This document shows positions 9,501 to 56,433 of a stretch of 64,000 nt of DNA, in pieces. Location: contig NC_045138.2 in the NCBI RefSeq assembly GCF_008831285.2, positions 39,609,115 through 39,673,114 of the forward strand, read 5' to 3'. The translations under genes were made by a program, and so were the position numbers. This stretch comes from Nymphaea colorata (Eukaryota > Streptophyta > Magnoliopsida > Nymphaeales > Nymphaeaceae). Every line of letters starts with the position of its first letter. Position 1 is the stretch's first letter. Below the pieces are notes generated by a model that was given only the letters and a program-made list of their open reading frames with translations, was not told where the DNA came from and ran no database searches.

Positions 9501-11863
9501 CCTTCTGTCATTGGAGTGGTTTGTGAAATCTTTCTCCTTATTGTCACAGATTGTACCGATAATCTGCAATTCTGGATGGTTCAATATTTTGTCTTGCTTT
9601 ACATATCAACGCCTTGCAACATTCTGATTGTTTTACAGAGGAAGGTTGCAAGTCTATTCTTTCATGCAGAACATTTGAGTGATTAGAACATGTAAATAGT
9701 AAATATAATAAAATGGTATTTCCTCAATGTTGTGAAAATCTATTTATCTTGTCTGTTCTTACTATCTTGTATTAATATATTACAACCGTACTTCCACCTG
9801 CTTGTCTCTCTAATACATGAATAGATTGATGACTATATTATCACATTAATAGAAGTTTCTGTTACATTCTTGGTTAAAAGATTAAAATGTCATCCAAAAG
9901 AAATTTCTTTTTGCTCCACATTTATTTGAAGTAAGAGACAAAAAATCAGCCAATATTTGTGCTTTGATTTTGGACTAGTTATCTAGTCACTGAAGAAGTC
10001 AAACCTAAATTCTTATGGTTAAATAGTTGGTTAAGATATAATAACTAATGGGCTATTTTGGATAAAAGGGTAATTAACAAGGTGTTCATGACCTTTGATA
10101 ATATTTTGACTAGTGATGTAAAGGTGATTAGACATTCTTTAGTAATGTTAGGCAACTTTAGCGAGAGCATAATCGCTTTTGTACTGTGGAGGGGAAACCT
10201 AATAGGAAAATAAAATCAGGACATGCCTATTAAGGCATTCAGGTGTTTTTGCTTAAGATGAAGGATGAAGATTATTGTCATTATTTTGATGCCATTTGGT
10301 AGCCATAATATTATTTCTACCTTTTTCGATGATAAAACAAGTTCAAAATTTGTTTGGGTGTCTTTTTAAAGTTCTCTACTATTTTTGTAAATAATATAAA
10401 AGCAATATATTTTGACATTACAAAATTGTTCTCTTATGAAATCTTTGGTGTAATGACATGATTGACCTTTTATCTATCATTGTTCTTTTGTATGGTTCAA
10501 TTATTTTTTTTGTTTATTAATGAAAAAGACCATTGGTTTGCAAAGCGTAACTTAATGAATAACATTTGGTTTCACCTGAAATATGTAGTTTGTGACTGTT
10601 CAGGAGTTTGATTTGCAGTCTCATTCATCACTAGCTTATACAAGTCTTTAGCCTATTATGACTTGTTCCTTTTATTTCCACAGGTTCCTTACGTTGGACT
10701 AAACTTTTCTGTATACGAGTCTTTGAAGGACTGGTTAATCAAAACAAGACCTTTTGGGCTTGTTGAGGACAATGAACTAGGTGTGACTACAAGGCTTGCC
10801 TGTGGAGCTGTAGCTGGAACAATTGGACAAACAGTTGCATACCCACTGGATGTCATTCGTAGAAGAATGCAGATGGTAGGCTGGAGCCATGCAGCATCAA
10901 TTGTTACAGGGGATGGGAGACGCACGGCTGCTCCGGAGTATAATGGCATGGTTGATGCATTTAGGAAAACAGTTCGCAATGAAGGTTTTGGGGCTTTATA
11001 CAAGGGTCTAGTTCCTAACTCTGTGAAGGTGAGTGCTATCGTGTTTGCTGGAAGAGGAGCATGATTAAGGATCTATGGGGTTGTTAGCTTCACAGCTCAC
11101 ATCGAAGTAACTCCATTCTCTTCAAGGGAAATTACTCACTGCCCATTTAGATTGCTTGAAAACCATAAGTTGGTCCTATCTTCTGAAAAGGTGATCCTAC
11201 CTAACAAATCAGTTTGGTAAGGAAGGGATGTTTATTAAACTTAATAGACACCATCAAGTCAGGGTTAGTAAGAATGTGGAGGCATTTTGCCTCCCTTGTT
11301 ATTGAATTTTTGGTAGGGATTAGGAGATTTACAGATGGGTGGTAGCATCACAGACATGCACAAGACACACAGACAGGGACATAAAAGAGAGGGGAGATTG
11401 ACAAACTAATCACAAATTTGTCATGTCTTGGCTGGTGTGACTGCTCATTAAGGCCTACTTTGTAGGATTAATGATTTAGCTGGTTGGGTAGGTCAATCTA
11501 AGAATTCAGCATTTTAAATCTGGGTGATGCCCCAACAATACAGGAAAAGGTCTTTAATCCTTATTTATGCCCTACAAAAGGAGTCACCTTGTTGTCTGTT
11601 TTATGCCTTGTCTATGTTTGTGCATGTCACTACTATGCATCAGCATGAAGTCATGGCTGCCTGTCCATGGTAGTTTTAGGTTCATGGGTTGGTGGTACTG
11701 TTTGTTTCAAGACATATCTATTTGTCATCTGCATGTGGAAAGTACTTTAGCCGGCTGAATTATTGTTTTAATATTGCAGGTTGTGCCATCTATTGCTATT
11801 GCATTTGTGACATATGAGATAGTTAAAGATGTTTTAGGAGTTGAGATGAGAATATCTGACTGA
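517..11863 (+). CDS. ADNT1: Mitochondrial adenine nucleotide transporter (ADNT1-type carrier), 8 coding exons
   Basis: Coding exons are 517-677, 2993-3041, 6052-6215, 7766-7803, 9181-9293, 9405-9518, 10684-11028 and 11780-11863. All introns are GT-AG, and the joined frame gives 355 aa with no stop. Three mitochondrial-carrier signatures are present, one per repeat: PLERLK (residues 61-66), PMDMVR (164-169) and PLDVIR (267-272). This is the six-helix fold of the SLC25 family in the inner mitochondrial membrane. The N-terminus (MASEDV, then NLAEEAK) and the C-terminus (VKDVLGVEMRISD) match Arabidopsis ADNT1 (about 352 aa) as I remember it. That protein exchanges cytosolic AMP for matrix ATP. 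The start is fixed by the conserved MASED N-terminus directly after a CTAGGGTTT leader motif. Introns 1 and 2 are 2.3 and 3.0 kb; intron 5 is only 111 bp. Reading on from exon 6 or exon 7 into the following intron leaves long ORFs, so intron retention would give truncated carriers. Family assignment is very secure; the exact substrate is inferred from similarity. Confidence 0.95.
3670..3761. repeat. 46-bp perfect tandem duplication in ADNT1 intron 2
   Basis: Unit 1 spans 3670-3715 and unit 2 spans 3716-3761, with no mismatch. It sits at the left edge of a block (about 3660-4060) containing CTAGT/GACTTGT-rich sequence. A diverged relative of that block occurs in intron 4 at about 8640-8960. 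Confidence 0.9.
8640..8960. repeat. Dispersed CTAGT/GACTTG-rich repeat in ADNT1 intron 4
   Basis: This block resembles 3660-4060 in intron 2. It has GACTAGT-like motifs, then a TATATGT-rich stretch, then a related tail (the 'gagtagt...aaggcc...ctaacttc' pattern of intron 2 corresponds to 'gagtagt...aaggcc...cgacttc' here). Both are probably decayed copies of one interspersed repeat. No terminal repeats or coding capacity were found. Confidence 0.45.
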
Positions 11864-37700: not shown

Positions 37701-38715
37701 TCATCCATCGACTCATTGGCTCTCGCTCTCTCATCTTCTGCCGTTGAATCGCGTTGCTTCTTCTTCTTCATCTTCTTCGTTCTTTAATTTTGCCAACTTG
37801 TTGGCGGTTTCTTGCTCGAGCTGAAGTGACTCCTCGGGTTCTTTCTTCAGTTTCCGAGCTCCGTAGATTGGTTTCCTACGACCACGTGTTGCTCTTTCGT
37901 TTCATATCCTCCCGTTTGTTGGGGGAGTGGGTTTCTGAACTCCGAAGTGACGTTGATCGGATTCACCAACAGGTAACGTTTGTTCCCACTGCTCTGAACT
38001 CGCGTGAGGTTCTTCACAGCCGGAAAGCGGTCCTTAATTTCCCCCTTTTTCTTCTCTGCGACTGTTTACTTTTAGAGAATTTTCATGGCTTTTGTCCTTT
38101 GTCCTTTTCCTTCTGCTTCTGCTTCTCAGAGGCGACGCCTGAACTACCAACTTCCTCTTTTCGCTTGAGAAGTCCTTCGGGCTTCGGTGATTCGTGTTGT
38201 GTTCGTCCCTTTTCTTCTCCTCTCTTTCTGAAGGCCTCGTCCTGTTCCGTGCCGTTCTGTCGCCCGCCATGGTGTCTCTCTGAGTGCCATTTTGTCTTTT
38301 TGCCGTCAGCCTTTTGTTTCTTCTTGATCCCGTTCGTTTCCTGAAACTCTACTTTCGCGGTCGCGCTGTGCTCGCTGAATACGGGAATCTTCTGGGAATT
38401 TTCCTTTTCTCTTATTTGGGTTTGAATGGAATTCATAGAGTGAGAAGGAATTCCCGGGGAAACTTCTGTCTCTTTTGAGAACATTATTATTCTGGATGGG
38501 TGCCGTGGTGGCCCCCCAACCATTTATAATGAAACAAAAGGGAGAAGACCATAACAGAACTAGCGGAAAAAATGCCTTGTTTTGATATATGTATGTAACC
38601 TTCCGATCGTTTTGGTCTTTCAGGCTTGGAGAAGTGTCCGTAGATCCGAAACTGTGAAACAGAAAAACTCTATCTTGGAGTAGAAATCCGTAAGGTTCCT
38701 AGCCAGCAAGGACCG
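37700..38715 (+). other. 5' UTR of the GH3/JAR1-like gene, with an intron
   Basis: A CT-rich leader runs to 37972 (CAACAG), followed by a GT-AG intron 37973-38623 (acceptor TCTTTCAG) and a second leader exon 38624-38715 up to the ATG. No ATG occurs in either leader exon, so there is no uORF. A G-box CACGTG sits at 37883-37888, a site type bound by MYC2-class bHLH factors of jasmonate signalling. The intron is inferred from good consensus sites, not from transcript data. Confidence 0.6.
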
Positions 38716-41700
38716 ATGTTGGATAAGGTCGGAGCATTCTGTCAGGAGAAGGTAATAGAGGAGTTTGAGGCGAAGTCTAGGGACGCCGGAAAGGTTCAGG
38801 ATAACACTCTCTGGAGGATTCTCCATGAGAATGGTCAATCAGAGTACTTGCAGAAATGTGGTTTGGGGGGGAGGACTGATCCCGAGAGTTACAGGGCATA
38901 TGTCCCGCTCGTGACTCATGCGGATTTGGAGCCGTATATTCAGAAGATCGTTAATGGGGAGAATAAGTCTGCTCTCACAGAGAAACCAATCTCTACCATA
39001 TCTCTCAGGTTCCTTTATTCTCTTAGTTTCGGTTGCTCCCCTCTTTGTTGGTGCATTGATTTATAGCACTATTTACTGTATAATTCTCAAACTTTTACTG
39101 CTTTGTCGCAGCTCCGGGACGACGCAGGGGAGGCCCAAGTTTTTGCCTTTCAATGATGAGCTTGTGGATAACACCATGCAGATATACCGGACGTCATTTG
39201 CTTACAGAAACAGGCAAGTTCTTCCCTACCAACACGAACTTTTTGCCGGTACTGTCTCCATCCGGCTTCTTGCTTCATCTGCTGCTGTTATACGCACACT
39301 TGCAGTGCCATTAAATGGGCTTTCTTCATGCAAGCGCAAGATTCAGTTTGTTTTCCTTTGCGTGGTTAACCGTTCCTTTCATGGAATGATCTCTTTCTTT
39401 GGAGTGAATGTGAAAAGAGTTCCGAAAATCGCGTTCCTTCTTTCCGGGACTGCGTGGTTCCTCGTTTTGCTTTCCTGCAAGTACACAGAAAGAAACGAAA
39501 AACCTTTCATTGTTGAAAGACAAGTCCTCTGAGCGGAGGTGTTCTCTTTTCCGCGTTCTTGTGAGGCTACACATAGTGCGAGTACCTCCTCTGAGAGTCT
39601 GAGAAGATGCTGGACGATCTTTTGGCTACTACCTCTCTTTACGTGTTCAACTCCGGCACTTTTCCCAAAATGCGCGATTATGTTCTCTGTTAACACGCAG
39701 AACTCACTTTTCCTCCATTTGTTTTTGCTGATTCTTCTATGTTACTGTGATTACCCTTTTTGACAAAGGAAAAACTTCTTATCTATTTAAAATTTGAGGA
39801 AGAGTTTCTGTTTATGTGTTCACTGTGGGAGAATCGTACAGGCTACAGCGTGATCATCTCCGCCAAGATATGATACAAGGCATTGGCTACTGAAACATTG
39901 GACTTTCCCCATAAGTTTTTCATGGTTCTGTCACTTCCGTCGTGGTTTTGCAGTTTGGGATCCTTGTACCTTGCACAAGAAATACACTATTTTCCTGCAG
40001 GACTGCAGTAGGTTGGATTTTTTTTTTTTTGCACTATGACTGCCTCTTCTCCAGCATAGATAAAGGATATGTCTGACCTGTATGATTGATTCACAACGTG
40101 ATCTGACAGTCATGAATGCTTGTAATTCGTGCTGGTCCATACGACTATGAAATGTGTTGTCAGATTTGAGTTCGTAACAGATAGCCCTTTCCAGTGTTCA
40201 TGGCGTCACTTGTTTGGGCATGCTTTCTTTTCCGCTTGATCTGCTGCTAATTTAGTGGGGAATTCTTAAGATGCTTTTCTTACTACAGTAGCTCGCTCTT
40301 TTACCATCTCATGTAGTAAGCACCATTTTCATGTCTCAGCTAGTTCTGTCTCATCTTCTAATGCCTTGTTTCTTTGGAATCTACAGAGAATTTCCGATCA
40401 AGAGTGGAAGGGCCTTGCAGTTTATCTACAGCAGCAAGCAGTTCAAAACAGAGGGGGGTCTCTTAGCAGGCACTGCTACAACCAATGTGTACAACACCGA
40501 TCAGTTCAAGGCGACGATGAAGGATATACTGTCGCAGAGTTGCAGCCCGGATGAAGTCATATTCGGAGCTGACTACAAGCAATCTCTGTACTGCCACCTC
40601 TTGTGTGGGCTCATCTATTCCGATGAGGTTCAGTTCATATCTTCCACATTCGCTCACGGCATCGTCCATGCTTTCCGAACATTCGAGCAAGTCTGGGAAG
40701 AACTATGCGAGGACATAAAAGAAGGCGTCCTCAGCAGCCGAATCACCATCCCATCGATGCGGATTGCCGTCTCCAAAATCCTGAAGCCCAGACCTGAATT
40801 GGCGGCCACCATTCGCCGGAAGTGCAGCAGCTTGAACAACTGGTATGGACTAGTCCCTCAGCTCTGGCCCAATGCCAAGTACATCTATGGCATCATGACA
40901 GGTTCAATGGAGCCTTATCTGAAGAAACTGAGGCATTACGCCGGCGATTTGCCCTTGTTGAGTTCCGATTACGGATCATCGGAGGGATGGATTGGTGCCA
41001 ATGTCAATACACGAGCGCCCCCTGAGGAAGCAGTGTTCACCGTGCTTCCAGATATCGGTTACTTTGAGTTCATTCCTCTGAGAAGAGACGTTGGCAGTGA
41101 AGAAACAAATTTAACAGCAGCTTTGGCTGTCTATAACGAATTTGAACCTGTTGGTCTTACGGAAGTTAAGGTCGGGGAAGAGTATGAGGTCGTCGTCACT
41201 AATTTTGCAGGTAAAGGTCCTCCATTACCGATGCTTTTAAGCGCATTTATTCCTAGAGCAAAAGTTTCCTGTTACTGTATATATCATATTAGGAACAGCG
41301 TTTGCATCATGAGTTGTCTTTCGGTTTAATTAATAGCTCGATACGTTCTTATTCGCTACATGTTGGCAAGTAGGAATCATATTCCTCCATGCTTCCTCTG
41401 CGTTGGCTCCCCAAAAGCTCTTTCAGACACGAGCAGTAGCGGCCATGATTGCTCTGTCATTACTTTTCCATTGGTTTTGTTGTCTCCAACTTCTCATGTG
41501 CTTTACTCACTACTCGCTGGAGTGAGGACAGTCGTTTTCTTTTCGTGGAACAAAGCGGATCCTTTTTCCTTTCTTTTAAGTATCTCTCATACCAAATTAG
41601 GTTTTCTCACTTTTCGCTTTTCTGTTTCTCTAATGTGTTCTTTCCATAGTGTTCTAAATCTTGCAAATACAAGATTATATACATTAGCACTGTGTCCTCA

Positions 41701-42753
41701 ATCTATTGTATGTCTGTATTAACAATTAATAATTTGATTATAGTAATTTATTTCAAAGGACCGTACGATTGGACGAATTATTAGGTAGGGAGTCATGGTC
41801 CACCGTCGGCCATTGTAGAATGGTAGGATGCATTTTAAAAATGGAGTCCCGCGAGACACAGATGGATGGAAAACTGCACACGCTAGGAAGAAGAACAAGT
41901 GTCAAAAAATGGTATAATTTGAAGAAGAGATATTTAATACGCCACTTTCCACTGATGCGCCATATTCCTTTAACAATGATGTCGGCATGACCTTGGCTTC
42001 GTTATTTATTTGTCCAACTTTCCTATGGAAAGCGGGTCGCTGATTTGTTTGTGGTTGGGCATATTATTTGAAGTCCTTTTGACTGCACATATTTAGATTT
42101 ATGAATGATAATTAAATATGAGTAGGTGTAAAAATTAGAGATTAATCCAGATATGTGGTGATATTATAGGAAAGAAAGTAATCTTCCAATGGTTTATTGT
42201 TCTTTGTCCAGGTTTATACCGATACAGGCTGGGGGATGTGGTGAAGATAAAGGGTTTCTACAACTCCATTCCGCAGCTGCAATTCATATGCCGGAGGAGT
42301 CTCCTTCTCACCGTGAACGTGGACAAGAACACGGAGAAGGACCTGCAATTGGCGGTGGAGCGGGCGGCGGAGCTGCTGGCCAAGGACATGGCGGAACTGG
42401 TTGATTTCACGAGCTACGTCGACATGACCAGCGATCCCGGCCACTACGTCGTCTTCTGGGAGATCAACCAGGAAGCCAGCGAGTCCACTCTCCAGGACTG
42501 CTGCTGCTGCATGGACCGGTCGTTCTTGGATGCCGGCTACATCAGCTCCCGCAAGTCGAAGACGATCGGAGAGCTGGAGCTCAAGATCCTGCAGAGGGGC
42601 ACGTTCCACCGGATTCTCGACCATTACCTGAACCTCGGCTCCGCCGTCAGCCAGTTCAAGATGCCCCGCTGCATCGGCGCTTCCAACCAGGCAGTCTTGG
42701 AGATCCTCAAGAACAGTGTGACCAAGAGCTATCTCAGCACTGCGTTTGGTTGA
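38716..42753 (+). CDS. JAR1: GH3 acyl-acid amido synthetase, JAR1-like (jasmonoyl-amino acid synthetase)
   Basis: Coding exons are 38716-39008, 39112-39213, 40387-41210 and 42212-42753, giving 586 aa (JAR1 is about 575). The ATP/AMP-binding motifs of the ANL superfamily are present: SSGTTQG at residues 98-104, YGSSEGW at 327-333 and YRYRLGD at 409-415. GH3 enzymes adenylate a small acid and join it to an amino acid in the cytosol. Stretches such as CGLGGRTD, LYCHLLCGLIYS and YGIMTGSMEPYLKKLRHYAG resemble Arabidopsis JAR1 and rice JAR1 more than the auxin-conjugating group, so jasmonate-isoleucine synthesis is the likely role. GH3.10/DFL2 is the alternative close relative. Intron 2 (39214-40386) has a GC donor (AACAG|GCAAGT) and an AG acceptor; only this junction keeps the conserved RNREFPI frame. 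The ATG is the first one in the spliced leader. Confidence 0.93.
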
Positions 42754-48436: not shown

Positions 48437-51334
48437 CTATTGGTAGTCTCTGTTGGGCATGGGAGGAAAATCTCTATTCGGTGGGGGAGGCGTGTCTCTG
48501 TTAGGCATGTTGTTGCCCTGGTAGCCGTAGCCCTGGTAATTGTTTCCTTGATATCCTCCCTGGTAATTGTTTGGTGGCATGTTGCCCATGTTTCCCATGT
48601 CTCTGTTCTGGAAATTGCCTCCCATGTCCCTGCTCTGGAAATCTCTATTGGGCATGTATCCTTGATCTCCTGCGGGCATGTCACGAGGCGGCATAGCATT
48701 TTGGTTATAAGGATTGGGATTCTGGAAGTCGTGGCTGGGCATAGGAGGTCGACCAGGTGGTGGCATCCCTTGCTGAGCATTGGGAGGAGGAGGATTTTGG
48801 AAGTCACGGTTGGGCATAGGAGGTGGACCAGGTGGTTGCATGCCTTGCTGAGCATTGGGAGGAGGAGGATTTTGGAAGTCACGGTTGGGCATAGGAGGTG
48901 GACCAGGTGGTTGCATGCCTTGCTGAGCATTTGGAGGAGGAGGATTTTGGAAGTCACGGTTAGGCATGGGAGGCATGTCCCGGCTCTGGAAGTCCTGGCT
49001 TTGCATATTCTGCCTTCTTCTCTCAAAGTTTCTCGACCTGTCAAAGTTGCGAGGCCTATCATTTCTTCTGGACCTCTCATTGGCTCGGGCATTGTTCCTC
49101 ACCCATTCTTCGTGATACTTTGGATCGTAGGGTACTGCTTTTCCATCTATGAATGGCTCTCCTGGATATTGACAAAGAAGACATGCGTAGTGGCAATCAA
49201 AAAACAAAAAACAAAAAAATTTGTTGAACCCAAAAGTCCCACTAAAAGATTGTATCTAACACACTCGACTAAAGCCAATCAAAATATTGTATCTAACACA
49301 CAAGTCAACTCACAATAGCAAAAGGCATATGTCATAACAAAAGAACTATGATGGACTTAAGGTTACATGGTCATAGTAAAACTCTAGAAGTCCATAGTGT
49401 GTCTTAAGATTAAGGAACTCATTCATATAAATGGACCAGAATAAGACCATTTTTTAAACTAACAAAGAATTCATATAAATGGACCAGAAGCTTTAATTAC
49501 AGCTTGCACAGGTTCAGCAATTCTAGCGTAGAATACTAACCTCCGTAGTCTTTGTTCTTGACATCAAGATAAGAATCAGGAAGAACCCAACGAACTCTTG
49601 GTAATGCTGCCAGATAGAAAAAATCAAGTACACATAAATAGACCACAGAAACAAAATCGAATATGCAAAACACCTCCTACTTACGCTTTATTTTGTATGA
49701 GAGTTCCTCTGAAACTTTGCATCCAAAAGCAAAGTAGTGCCTAGTTGAAACAGAATAAATTGATTTCCTTGCTTCATCCTCACTAAGACCAGACAAACAA
49801 TCATAAGGCCTCAATCAATAGTGGATAAAACTAAAAGGAATTGCCGAGCTCATTCGCTAACCATTCTCAATCAAAATAACAAGAAAAGGCAAAATAAGAT
49901 GGAGAAATCAGCAAAGGTAATCTTCACTTAGATAAAGGAATTACAAAACTAATTCGATAACTTCCCTCTACTAAGGTAACAACAAAACACCAAATGGGAT
50001 GGAGAAATCAGCAGATGAAGCCATATTTCATCAAGCAACAAAATATTCTGAAACCAGACGAATAAGATTTGTTTCTTTAGCCATCTTTGGCTTTAATTTG
50101 GGAAAATAAATTTCACTAAAACAATGAACGTTCCTCTAGTTCATAATTAATCACCCGTAAGAGCTTTGCAATGAACACACCTTCCACATGCATAAAAAAC
50201 AAGGTAGGGCGAAAAAGCAAAGGATGATTAACCGCCCAGTTTCAAATTTCAGCCGTTATATGGCAAACTACAATAGGAACGACAAAAACCGCAATAAAGA
50301 CAAGAAAGGGGCATTCGGCGGCATGGTTTTACTAGAGGACCTAGCTAACTTAGAAAGCTCCAATATCAATCTGCAAAGCCTTCTTCAATACGTCATCAGT
50401 CTTTGGATAAATCGGAGGGCAAATGCATGCCCTAAGATTTCTTTTGTACCATAAATAACTCATTTCCGAGTTTTACCTACTCGGTACTAACAAGTGAACA
50501 CTCTCCCCCAACCCTAAAATCTGGAAAATAAGAGGAAAATCAGGAAAACTATTCAATACGAGATCATCATTTACAAAATAGAAACTGTAATATGCACACT
50601 CATGGGAAGATGCGAACGCGTTACCGAAAAGGATTACCAAATAAACAACGTTTAGCATTTTCTTTTTTCGCTACAACTCCTTCCAAGCTGAAAAACTCGA
50701 CGAAACGCAACCATGAATCCAAAACATGGAAAGCAGGAAAAATATTCAATCCGAGCTCGTCACTATCAAAATATAAACTGTAACATAACGTGCATAAACA
50801 AACGCGTCATCAAAAGAATTACCAAACTACCAATGGTTAACATTTTTGGTTTCTCGCAACAACTTCAAGAAAGCTAACAAACTTGAAGAAAGTAACCGTG
50901 AACCAGAACATCCATCTACATAAGAGAGAGAGAGAGAGAGCTAACCTCCCAAGAACCTGAGCAAGCGTCTTAATATAGCTATCGATGATCTCGTCCCTGG
51001 TGGGATTCCCCTCGGGCGGCTCCATGACGATCAGCCAGTGCTCGAAATCGCACCCATCCAACAGAATCGTTTCCTTAGGTGGCCGATTGCTCCAGTTTGG
51101 CGAAGAATCGTTCAGGGACGAAGTGGTCGGCCTGGTGGTCGCCATACAACGCACGCCCATCGCCGGAATCCGGGTGATTTGCTGTAGGGCAGCGAGAGAA
51201 CGGACAGAGAACCCTGCATAAAACCGCGAAGGGCGGGCGCCAGCGACGGCAGAAAAGGAGGAGACTGAAGACGGCCTCCACGAAACCAGAGCCCGCCTCA
51301 GAAGAAGAGACCTTCCCAGGATCGCCGACGCCAT
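48437..51334 (-). CDS. MORF8: Multiple organellar RNA editing factor, MORF8/RIP1-like
   Basis: Minus-strand exons are 51334-50946, 49782-49685, 49606-49541 and 49161-48437, all GT-AG, giving 425 aa. Residues 1 to about 68 form an Arg/Ser/Ala-rich, acid-poor targeting peptide. The MORF domain follows (about 88-200), with [51 protein letters not shown] and [17 protein letters not shown] proteins bind PPR proteins in C-to-U editing complexes; Arabidopsis MORF8 works in mitochondria and plastids. [18 protein letters not shown] and [18 protein letters not shown] favour MORF8 over MORF1. The tail is Pro/Asn/Gln/Gly-rich, as in MORF8, but contains three 25-residue repeats (250-324). Intron 2 is only 78 bp. 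The ATG is the first in the leader downstream of a TATA box. The exon 2/3 junction encodes KIKPLPRV where I recall KLKELPKV in relatives; the frame is unaffected. Confidence 0.93.
48743..48967 (-). repeat. Three 75-bp in-frame tandem repeats in the MORF8-like tail
   Basis: Units 48967-48893, 48892-48818 and 48817-48743 each encode 25 residues beginning [18 protein letters not shown]. The first two are almost identical in DNA; the third differs at a few positions (Q to P, P to R). More decayed MP(N/S)xDFQ units continue downstream. Confidence 0.95.
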
Positions 51335-51480
51335 TGACGACCGGGACGAGAGCGCGAGAGTGTACAGTGACGACAGAAATGGTAAACAGGGGAACCCTAA
51401 GCTTAAACCCTAGCCAGAGGGACTGAGGGAGGATGAGCGAGGAGACCTTTTATATGGAAGAGTGAGGATGAAACCCTTTC
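51335..51480 (-). promoter_or_regulatory. Promoter and 5' leader of the MORF8-like gene
   Basis: On the minus strand a TATAAAA-type box lies at 51449-51455 (in CCATATAAAAGG), about 115 bp upstream of the ATG. The leader downstream of it contains CTAGGGTTT and TTAGGGTT, telo-box-like words, at about 51393-51413. The same CTAGGGTTT word stands before the start codon of the ADNT1-type gene. Confidence 0.6.
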
Positions 51481-53854: not shown

Positions 53855-56433
53855 TTATGATGAGGAGCTCGAAGATTCGAATGGTGAACTCCTGTGCCTT
53901 TTGCTCGAAACTGTGCTCCTCGGTGAGAAATCTGTAGAAGAAACTCTTTCCAAAACAGACTTCAGGGCTTGTTGGACTGATCTTGCAGCAGACCGTTGCT
54001 TCGCCTCATCGACATGTTCTCCTGGTGTGAAGATGAATACATTTTTTACCCTTCCTCCCAAAGTAGAAGTCTCTGCACTAACTGTCTTCAATTGAAGATT
54101 TTGCAGCATTTGCTTTAATTCAGTCCAAAGCTCTGGCCGATCATCACAACATAGTGATGCTCTTATATAAGAAGTGCCTTTGTCAGCATCATATTTGTCA
54201 GCATCATATTCCACTTGCACTTCATCATAATCTGTTGGAACAACACAACCTTTGGTGAGTACCTCAGCATTTCTCTTTAATTCCTTTACATTGGTTATTA
54301 CTTCCGCAAGCAGCGAAGCCTTGTCCATCTGCATCCGAGAATAAACTTTCAGTTATATTTATTACTTTCCCTCAGGAGAAAAACAGACATGGAAGGAAAA
54401 GATTGCAGGACAAGTGAAAATGACTCTCAAAAATGATAGAGAGAGACTAAATATCATTTAGAAAGAAGATGATGACAGGATGTGGCACAGAAAATCACGA
54501 TACTTTATTTATTAAAAGGTAAACAAAAATAGAAGGAAGCTATTCTTCGTTGGTCTGTTTTCTATCAACAAAAGGTAAATAAAATAGGTGTTTCTCCACT
54601 TGTACCAGATGAAAGGTTAAGAAGGGAGAAAGTCAACACAAAACAGCAAGAAAAATGAAAGTCAATGAAGTAATTCGAAGGCTTCCATTATTCCACATCA
54701 AATACTTTTAACAGGATAGGAACCACACAGCAATGATGATGGAATCTACCAAAAGAAATCGATGCCATCCTAGGACAAAAAATGACGATCAAAACACAAA
54801 ATAAAGGAATTTGCAACTTCATAGAAAAGAATAACGATGCAAGTGAAAGCATCTGATCTTAGAACTGAGATTCTAGACGGATCTGCTGATGCAGAAGGAG
54901 GTTCCCACACAAAATCCAGGCTCTATCAACAAAGGATGTTAGTTCCTATCTTGGTTGACTTTCAGATCCTCAATTTTCTACTTCATACTGGCTGATGCTC
55001 AGATCAAAGAACTGATCTTTGTGGAAGGTCTGACCTCAAACCTGAGGGTTATGTAGTTAGATCAGATCTAAGCTTATCAAAACAATTATTAATTATGCTT
55101 ATCAAAGAGCCCCAGGAGAAAAAAGGAATAACATTTGGATTTTGAATGATACACCAGGACCCACAACAGCAAGGCATTTTACGATTCTTATATATGGCTT
55201 CACCATCTTAGATCATACCTCCCTAGGAATATTACAGATCGAAGGTTCAGAAACTACATCCAAAAAATCTCCTTCTCTCCCACCCCCCCCGCCCCCCACC
55301 CCCAGAAGTGCATGGTTTACCATGGCTTTAAGGATGTCAGACACTTTTCTGAATGATCGGATCTGGCATGGACCCCACTCCTAGATGCATGTGGGCCATG
55401 GATCCTTTGATAAGATATTCGGGCACAGATTAAGCACAAAAACCATACAGGAGAAACATAAGTAATATACCGACTCTAATCTAATAAAGCAAGAACCAGG
55501 CACAGAGAGCAGAAAAAGAAGAAAGAAATCAACTAAGCAGATCCTTACCTGACTAATACACACATAACATAAATACATGATCACAGTTGATATTCAACTG
55601 AGTGAGTTAATAAGATACAAACCTTATGAAGCAGATAGAGGATCAAGAAAAAACCTATCTCGTTGATGTTAACCAGTTTTTCTGCTTATTCTCCCATTTT
55701 AATTGTTCATAGTTCATACTATGCATTTGTTACCGGAAACCAGGAAAAGGGAAAGAAAAAAAAGACAGAACAAGAAAGAGAGAGAGAGGGAGAGAATTAA
55801 GAATTATAGACCACTTCCAGTAATGATCACGCCATACTCAAAGCCTTATTATTTCTGGCCTACATGTGCACACACACACTGTCACACACACACACATAGA
55901 TTCACCTTGGTGGTGCAGGGCACAAGTCCCCTCAACGTGGTCAGGTGACGGTTGATCCTCTCCCTCCGCAAAGAGAGAGAGAGGGAGAGAATTAATAATT
56001 ATAGACCACTTCCAGTAATGATCACGCCATACTCAAAGCCTTATTATTTCTGGCCTACATGTGCACACACACACTGTCACACACACACACATAGATTCAC
56101 CTTGGTGGTGCAGGGCACAAGTCCCCTCAACGTGGTCAGGTGACGGTTGATCCTCTCCCTCCGCCTCCTTTCCGCTTCGCTGTGACTCTTCAATGCCATC
56201 GTGGCCTTCGCCTCCGCCATCTCCTTCCTCATCAGGTCGCTCGCCTTCACCAGCTCCCCTTTCTCGCTGTCCAGCACCAGGGAGGAAGATGACGACGACG
56301 ACATCAGCGCGCCGACATTAAACTGACCACCACCATGCCCAAACCCACCAAAAACCCCGGAGAACCGCTTCCTTCCGACATCTCCTGCCGCGTGAAAAGA
56401 ACCCATCATCTGCATCTCCTCCCCGACCATCAT
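53855..56433 (-). CDS. bHLH transcription factor with C-terminal ACT-like domain (bHLH30/32/106/107 group)
   Basis: Minus-strand exons are 56433-56101 and 54328-53855, with GT-AG intron 54329-56100, giving 268 aa. Residues 82 to about 130 form the bHLH: the basic region SHSEAERRRRERIN has the H84-E88-R92 pattern of E-box/G-box binders, and helix 2 (MDKASLLAEVITNVKELKR) starts exon 2. An ACT-like domain follows (ASLCCDDRPELWTELKQ, then STLGGRVKNVFIF). The intron position inside the loop and this domain order fit the Arabidopsis group of bHLH30, TMO5/bHLH32, bHLH106 and bHLH107, nuclear regulators of growth and vascular development. Which member it matches is not resolved. The start is firm: an in-frame stop at 56547-56545 lies upstream with no ATG between. 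There is a poly-Ser run at 45-51 and a Ser-rich C-terminus, and a 15-bp duplication gives YDADKYDADK. The end of exon 1 lies in a 195-bp tandem duplication. Confidence 0.9.
54179..54208 (-). repeat. 15-bp in-frame duplication in the bHLH gene
   Basis: Two identical 15-bp units (54179-54193 and 54194-54208) encode the repeated YDADK between helix 2 and the ACT-like domain, where length varies in this family. Confidence 0.9.
55775..56164. repeat. 195-bp tandem duplication across the bHLH exon 1/intron border
   Basis: Unit 55775-55969 and unit 55970-56164 are identical except at one base (g at 55801, t at 55996). On the minus strand each unit contains the last 64 bp of exon 1 (helix 1 of the bHLH), the splice donor AAG|GTGAAT, a CA/GT repeat and about 130 bp of intron. 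The right-hand unit is the functional exon end; the left-hand copy lies in the intron and carries a second intact donor at 55905. Confidence 0.97.

Follow-up and report, generated by a model that had tools for sequence, protein, structure and literature searches.

The boundary between exon 1 and intron 1 of a two-exon bHLH gene is duplicated in the 64-kb stretch of Nymphaea colorata DNA analysed here, the whole of which we call the window. The two tandem units of 195 bp differ at a single base. We consider it fairly probable that this is a recent small tandem duplication made by break repair, the second unit of which leaves with the intron, so that the event is mostly silent. In this reading, break repair duplicated a piece of a TMO5-like bHLH gene that runs from the final 64 nt of exon 1 through the initial 131 nt of intron 1. 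Most transcripts would still join 56100 to 54329 and lose unit 2 with the intron, and some may use the inner donor at 55905, with 195 nt retained, a stop after seven codons, and NMD expected. Overall, the gene would be unaffected or would lose a little of its product, and no regulated switch would be involved.

The duplicated block and its host gene

On the minus strand, positions 55775-56164 consist of two head-to-tail units of 195 bp, which are 194/195 identical in a base-by-base comparison. TRF describes them with a period of 195, 2.0 copies, and a 99% match.

55970..56164, minus strand: unit 1, made up of coding sequence from exon 1 (64 nt) and of intron 1 sequence (131 nt)
55775..55969, minus strand: unit 2, 194/195 identical to unit 1

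The sole mismatch between the units is an A at 55996 against a C at 55801. The block comprising both units spans the exon 1/intron 1 boundary of the gene; the 64 nt of exon 1 are 62% GC and the 131 nt of intron 1 are 40% GC, with 37% T in the intron part of unit 1. These comparisons bear out the preliminary description of the locus, which had reported tandem units of 195 bp, one base apart, that copy the end of exon 1 and its splice donor. Each unit indeed comprises 64 nt of exon 1 and an intact GT, at 56100 and at 55905.

Chance is no explanation for a 195-bp repeat at 99%, which is a judgement and not a computed value. Near-identical units are always suspect, as one true unit may have been written twice during assembly, and local errors are possible in the PacBio/Canu assembly of Nymphaea colorata, going by the passages of PMC7015852 on that assembly. 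Against such an artefact stand the one-base difference between the units and an N count of 0 in the 64-kb window. In addition, a 205-base DNA query against the 407.8-Mb assembly (783 contigs) returned two matches, both at this locus, and no alternative contig with a single unit, in a search that scores the best candidates only and leaves out simple repeats. Comparable two-copy repeats are also found elsewhere in the genome. An assembly artefact is, in our view, quite improbable.

The gene itself comprises two coding parts separated by one intron.

56101..56433, minus strand: coding part of exon 1, with the first in-frame ATG at 56433, the basic region, helix 1, and the start of the loop; phase 0
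54329..56100, minus strand: intron 1, 1772 nt, with donor AAG/GTGAAT at 56100 and acceptor TGCAG/ATGG
53855..54328, minus strand: coding part of exon 2, with helix 2, the C-terminal part, and the stop codon

The 56100/54329 join gives a protein of 268 aa, the whole frame of which is intact. Its HLH domain (PF00010) scores 40.5 bits against a Pfam cut-off of 20.7, at residues 75-120 of the 260-aa form that was searched. We take the gene to be TMO5-like, from the bHLH30/32 (T5L1/TMO5) clade, an assignment made by resemblance. Members of the TMO5 clade are vascular regulators and partners of LHW.

Three paralogues of like layout, at C1 near 36.74 Mb, C8 near 19.90 Mb, and C10 near 15.20 Mb, were chosen from a protein search, in which 17 matches were listed, including other bHLH genes. 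The intron is at the identical position, in phase 0, in 4/4 genes (the locus and its three paralogues), after ...TTK or ...ATK, and all four introns end with a CAG acceptor. The donors are AAG/GTGAAT here, AAA/GTATCT at C1, and AAA/GTAAGA at C8 and C10. As GTGAAT lacks the +5 G present in two of the three paralogues, the donor of the bHLH gene is not strong. The possibility that the duplication is a feature of the whole family was rejected: TRF shows none at the three paralogues, where it reports only three dinucleotide runs in one of them. Exon 2 of the bHLH gene exhibits a perfect tandem duplication of 15 bp (54179-54210), by which YDADK is repeated in frame; this repeat is missing from the three paralogues.

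Age and origin of the duplication

At an assumed rate of 7e-9 per site and generation, the divergence between the units (1/195, or 0.0051 per site) corresponds to an age of about 0.37 million generations (95% range 0.009-2.04 million). The earlier view that the duplication is young is supported by this one difference in 195. Gene conversion between the units could make the apparent age too young.

Ordinary error-prone break repair most likely made the duplication, as judged from the joint alone. The units are adjacent direct copies (194/195), and comparison of the flanking bases indicates a blunt joint with 0 bp of microhomology. The passages of PMC8355091 on small duplications propose that break repair gives rise to them in the DNA of humans and plants.

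Tandem duplications with a period of at least 25 and a match of at least 95% are more frequent in the window than in control sequence. TRF was used at one setting, rows that shared more than half of their length being merged into the best-scoring one; it finds six in the 64-kb window, the 195-bp pair included, against three in the 200-kb control (P = 0.0085 for at least 6 of the 9 to fall in the window). The control comprised 20 random 10-kb stretches from seven contigs, all 20 of which were used and 18 of which had none; for four of the seven contigs, the draw was open only below the highest known match. The window contains several genes and the control stretches were not sorted by gene content, and its density of duplications is possibly an effect of gene richness. 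The unit lengths of the six duplications are 46, 66, 34, 71, 195, and 31 bp. Microhomology amounts to 0, 3, 4, and 0 bp at four of the five others, the measure being inapplicable to one multi-copy array. The 195-bp pair is the only duplication of at least 100 bp at a match of at least 95% in 264 kb, and the controls contain two arrays of longer period and lower match (487 bp at 86% and 213 bp at 84%). This type of event is common, and the 195-bp size is uncommon.

Other features of the window include a 75-bp unit repeated 3.4 times at 94% (48717-48973, minus strand), in an open reading frame with abundant proline, asparagine, and glutamine. No Pfam domain matches this frame; an exon that encodes a MORF domain (PF21864, in 50840-51409, minus strand) is close by. 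A GH3 family gene extends over several exons at 38644-42750 on the plus strand (PF03321, PF23571, PF23572); GH3 proteins are hormone-conjugating enzymes in plants. A mitochondrial carrier exon (PF00153) is found at 10612-11061, also on the plus strand.

The duplicated 195-bp piece nearly coincides with a stem-loop, whose inverted-repeat arms are located inside the ends of unit 1.

56147..56161, minus strand: left arm of the inverted repeat, with its partner at 55981-55995

The arms are 15 nt long, 13/15 complementary, and 3 and 11 nt inside the unit ends. In an arm search that is asymmetric, and in a test run after the arms had been noticed, a match as good occurred in 3/4000 random plus-strand segments. 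Among stepped positions, 16/12,761 matched as well in the minus orientation, two of them at the units, and 21/12,761 in the plus orientation, four of them at or next to the units. The 195-bp unit reaches only 10/15 in the plus orientation, and the two other duplications of sufficient length for this test reach 7. The arms as a cause of the duplication are a weak lead.

Candidate splicing outcomes

Beside the outer donor at 56100, the copied boundary provides a second one.

55904..55905, minus strand: inner GT donor, with the same sequence around it as the outer donor

Both GTs, at 56100 and 55905, read AAG/GTGAAT and sit in identical contexts of 26 nt. As the surroundings of the two donors agree in 64/64 bases upstream and 130/131 bases downstream, there is, as far as such a comparison can predict, no donor preference from the local sequence. 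In dicots, donor choice is influenced by AU-rich intron sequence, as the relevant part of PMC9813592 indicates; this rule is not decisive here, because 130 of the 131 downstream bases are common to both donors. The outer donor is transcribed first and is closer to the cap, which probably favours it, and we lean towards normal 56100/54329 splicing as the prevailing outcome.

Use of the inner donor at 55905 would retain 195 nt and add VNLCVCV before a stop, which gives 118 aa from the ATG at 56433. The retained 195 nt and the early stop had both been correctly foreseen in the preliminary description. By arithmetic, 171 nt separate the end of the stop codon from the last junction downstream, and degradation of the inner-donor transcript by NMD is therefore expected. 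Inner-donor use as an in-frame duplication of a helix was rejected, since the retained part of the intron stops after seven codons.

In older mammalian work, duplicated donors are reported often to favour the intron-proximal copy, and the intron-proximal donor is the harmful copy at the bHLH locus. If the inner donor won, most transcripts would stop early and decay, and the bHLH gene would have a null or strongly hypomorphic allele here. The two donors being identical, the closer position of 55905 to the acceptor and the exon-like stretch of 62% GC ahead of it speak for this outcome, as does its early-stopped product of 118 aa. The outer donor, however, is nearer the cap and is presumably made first, and the 268-aa frame is intact, although this last argument is weak for a young allele. 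We regard a predominance of the inner donor as possible and, on balance, unlikely. A natural off-switch had been suggested for the locus; there is no sign of regulation, only a route to loss of the product.

Two further features between the donors could serve as acceptors.

55958..55965, minus strand: three possible GAG acceptors that follow the CT tract, at 55965/64, 55961/60, and 55959/58
55906..55907, minus strand: AG of the inner AAG/GT, a possible dual-specific site

They belong to the 11 AGs listed between 56080 and 55907, which comprise the three GAGs after the CT tract, the inner AAG/GT, and seven more. With one of the three GAGs as acceptor, an internal exon of 58, 54, or 52 nt would arise between donors 56100 and 55905. 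Acceptor 55965/64 would give the 58-nt exon (55963-55906), with a frameshift and 151 aa, and acceptor 55959/58 would give the 52-nt exon, with a frameshift and 149 aa. The 54-nt exon from acceptor 55961/60 is in frame: it would insert RINRHLTTLRGLVPCTTK between the loop and helix 2, and the resulting protein of 286 aa repeats helix 1 and is not truncated. As the stop codon in the 58-nt case is, by arithmetic, beyond the last junction, this mRNA might escape junction-dependent NMD.

In the would-be intron of 137-143 nt, the CT tract follows a YTNAY match (TTAAT) and precedes the AGs, so that a candidate donor, branch site, pyrimidine tract, and acceptor are all present, and a potato gene has gained an intron from a tandem duplication over an intron/exon boundary (PMC4974935). 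The acceptors, however, are all GAG and are paired in the folds. In moss, GAG is stated to work very rarely as an acceptor, and well-supported GAG-containing NAGNAGs are given as alternative in 2.6% (14/536), according to the passages on these motifs in PMC3095350. For Arabidopsis, GAG loses to CAG or TAG in a table of PMC2375911. The seven further AGs, with CAG, TAG, AAG, and GAG among them, also weigh against the internal exon: they would give products of 112-166 aa, and six of them precede the CT tract and would define introns of 27, 46, 51, 61, 69, and 92 nt. The seventh is a GAG in unit 2, with a would-be intron of 170 nt.

The pairing of the candidate acceptors was assessed from RNA folds around the joint of the units.

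55955..55992, minus strand: possible hairpin across the unit joint, with 13 pairs in the centroid, formed by the CT tract of unit 1 and the GA-rich start of unit 2

The 51 nt at the joint (55945-55995) fold at -19.8 kcal/mol (z -3.88; 0/200 shuffles as stable), and the matching stretches at the two outer unit edges fold at 0 and -7.2. The hairpin persists in 115 nt (z -2.39; 4/200 shuffles), and 3/2000 simulated plus-strand joints fold as strongly. The 456-nt fold is unremarkable (z -1.35; 8/100 shuffles at least as stable); in it, the preferred partner of the unit 2 GA stretch is the CT tract within unit 2 (probability 0.98), not the one in unit 1 (0.02). The joint hairpin was dropped as a single dominant structure, as the GA stretch pairs within unit 2 in this longer fold, and at best it may be an early co-transcriptional form. 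The three GAG AGs are paired in the 51-, 115-, and 456-nt folds, and their unpaired probability in the 456-nt ensemble rounds to 0.0; by this prediction, the candidate acceptors would be inaccessible in either structure.

The 58-nt cryptic exon appears unlikely, because GAG acceptors are rare in plants and the AGs are paired in all the folds made. We hold the internal exon, at any of its three sizes, to be very improbable. Where the preliminary description had proposed this 58-nt exon, its frameshift stands (151 aa) and the exon itself is weak. It had also assumed that either outcome truncates the bHLH protein, which is not exhaustive: the 54-nt exon gives 286 aa, and the AAG/GT could be silent. 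The idea that nothing but a truncated protein could result was rejected, since one of the 11 AGs gives the in-frame 54-nt exon and one gives a zero-length exon, with the remaining nine giving proteins of 112-166 aa.

The zero-length exon results from the inner AAG/GT. Donor 56100 and AG 55906 bound an intron of exactly 195 nt, and the donor is rebuilt by its removal. As in dual-specific repeats, AGGT is present in each unit, and the length of the unit is that of the would-be intron (195 nt). The inner AAG/GT could thus act as a dual-specific site, with 195 nt excised and the normal mRNA restored. There is a slim chance that the locus is an early splice-site intermediate, in which the AAG/GT would be a recursive site through which the 195-nt unit is removed, and the 54-nt exon would be used in addition whenever the unit 2 GA stretch is free of pairing. 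The latter part, covered by the same slim chance, would yield a bHLH protein in which helix 1 occurs twice and the loop is extended by 18 residues.

Comparison with known systems

The vascular role of TMO5/T5L1 (bHLH32/bHLH30) is described in PMC4182325. Going by the parts of that source which concern the clade, its members combine the bHLH with a conserved C-terminal part, a likeness to the present gene, for which four loci share the intron position. Membership in the clade is a lead only. A search of the open-licence literature for TMO5 in Nymphaea gave nothing relevant.

The small duplications ascribed to double-strand-break repair in PMC8355091 are, like the one described here, short head-to-tail copies with no microhomology. 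In contrast, the 195-bp unit is the longest at a match of at least 95% in the 264 kb considered here, and inverted-repeat arms are not mentioned in the passages of that source on such duplications. The bHLH locus is a young tandem duplication, which is a known type of event. Small tandem duplications from break repair were reportedly surveyed in rice by Vaughn and Bennetzen in 2014.

Provided that the copy is genuine, the locus amounts to a duplicated-donor experiment performed by nature in a plant, with one harmless and one harmful donor, and it could reveal whether step-wise excision silences a duplicated AG/GT boundary. Should the inner donor prevail, the locus would be a loss-of-function allele, naturally arisen, of what is probably a vascular regulator.

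With regard to duplicated donors and intron gain by duplication, nothing closer than the potato RdRp gene and the work on dual-specific sites was found among the matches listed from the open-licence literature. The potato case (PMC4974935) may be seen as a near mirror image of the bHLH locus. In both, a duplication in a plant gene crosses an exon/intron boundary, and the splice signals come mostly ready-made from the parent. In potato, however, the 3' end of the intron and the start of the next exon were copied, whereas here it is the donor side. The potato copies are ten bases apart, and RNA-seq supports the intron gained there; an acceptor here would need the chimaeric joint with its GAG.

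The dual-specific AG/GT repeats of human UBC and VCX3A, as far as the sections of PMC10809524 on these genes describe them, share with the bHLH locus an AGGT in each unit and a one-unit intron, here a putative one, bounded by a donor and the next AG, with a length that is a multiple of 3. In contrast to these repeats, the AGGT here is an existing exon/intron boundary, and excision would restore the donor, as in recursive splicing, and not join exons. The dual-specific-site model would predict an exact 195-nt excision here. The bHLH locus may serve as a testable intermediate in duplication-driven splice-site birth.
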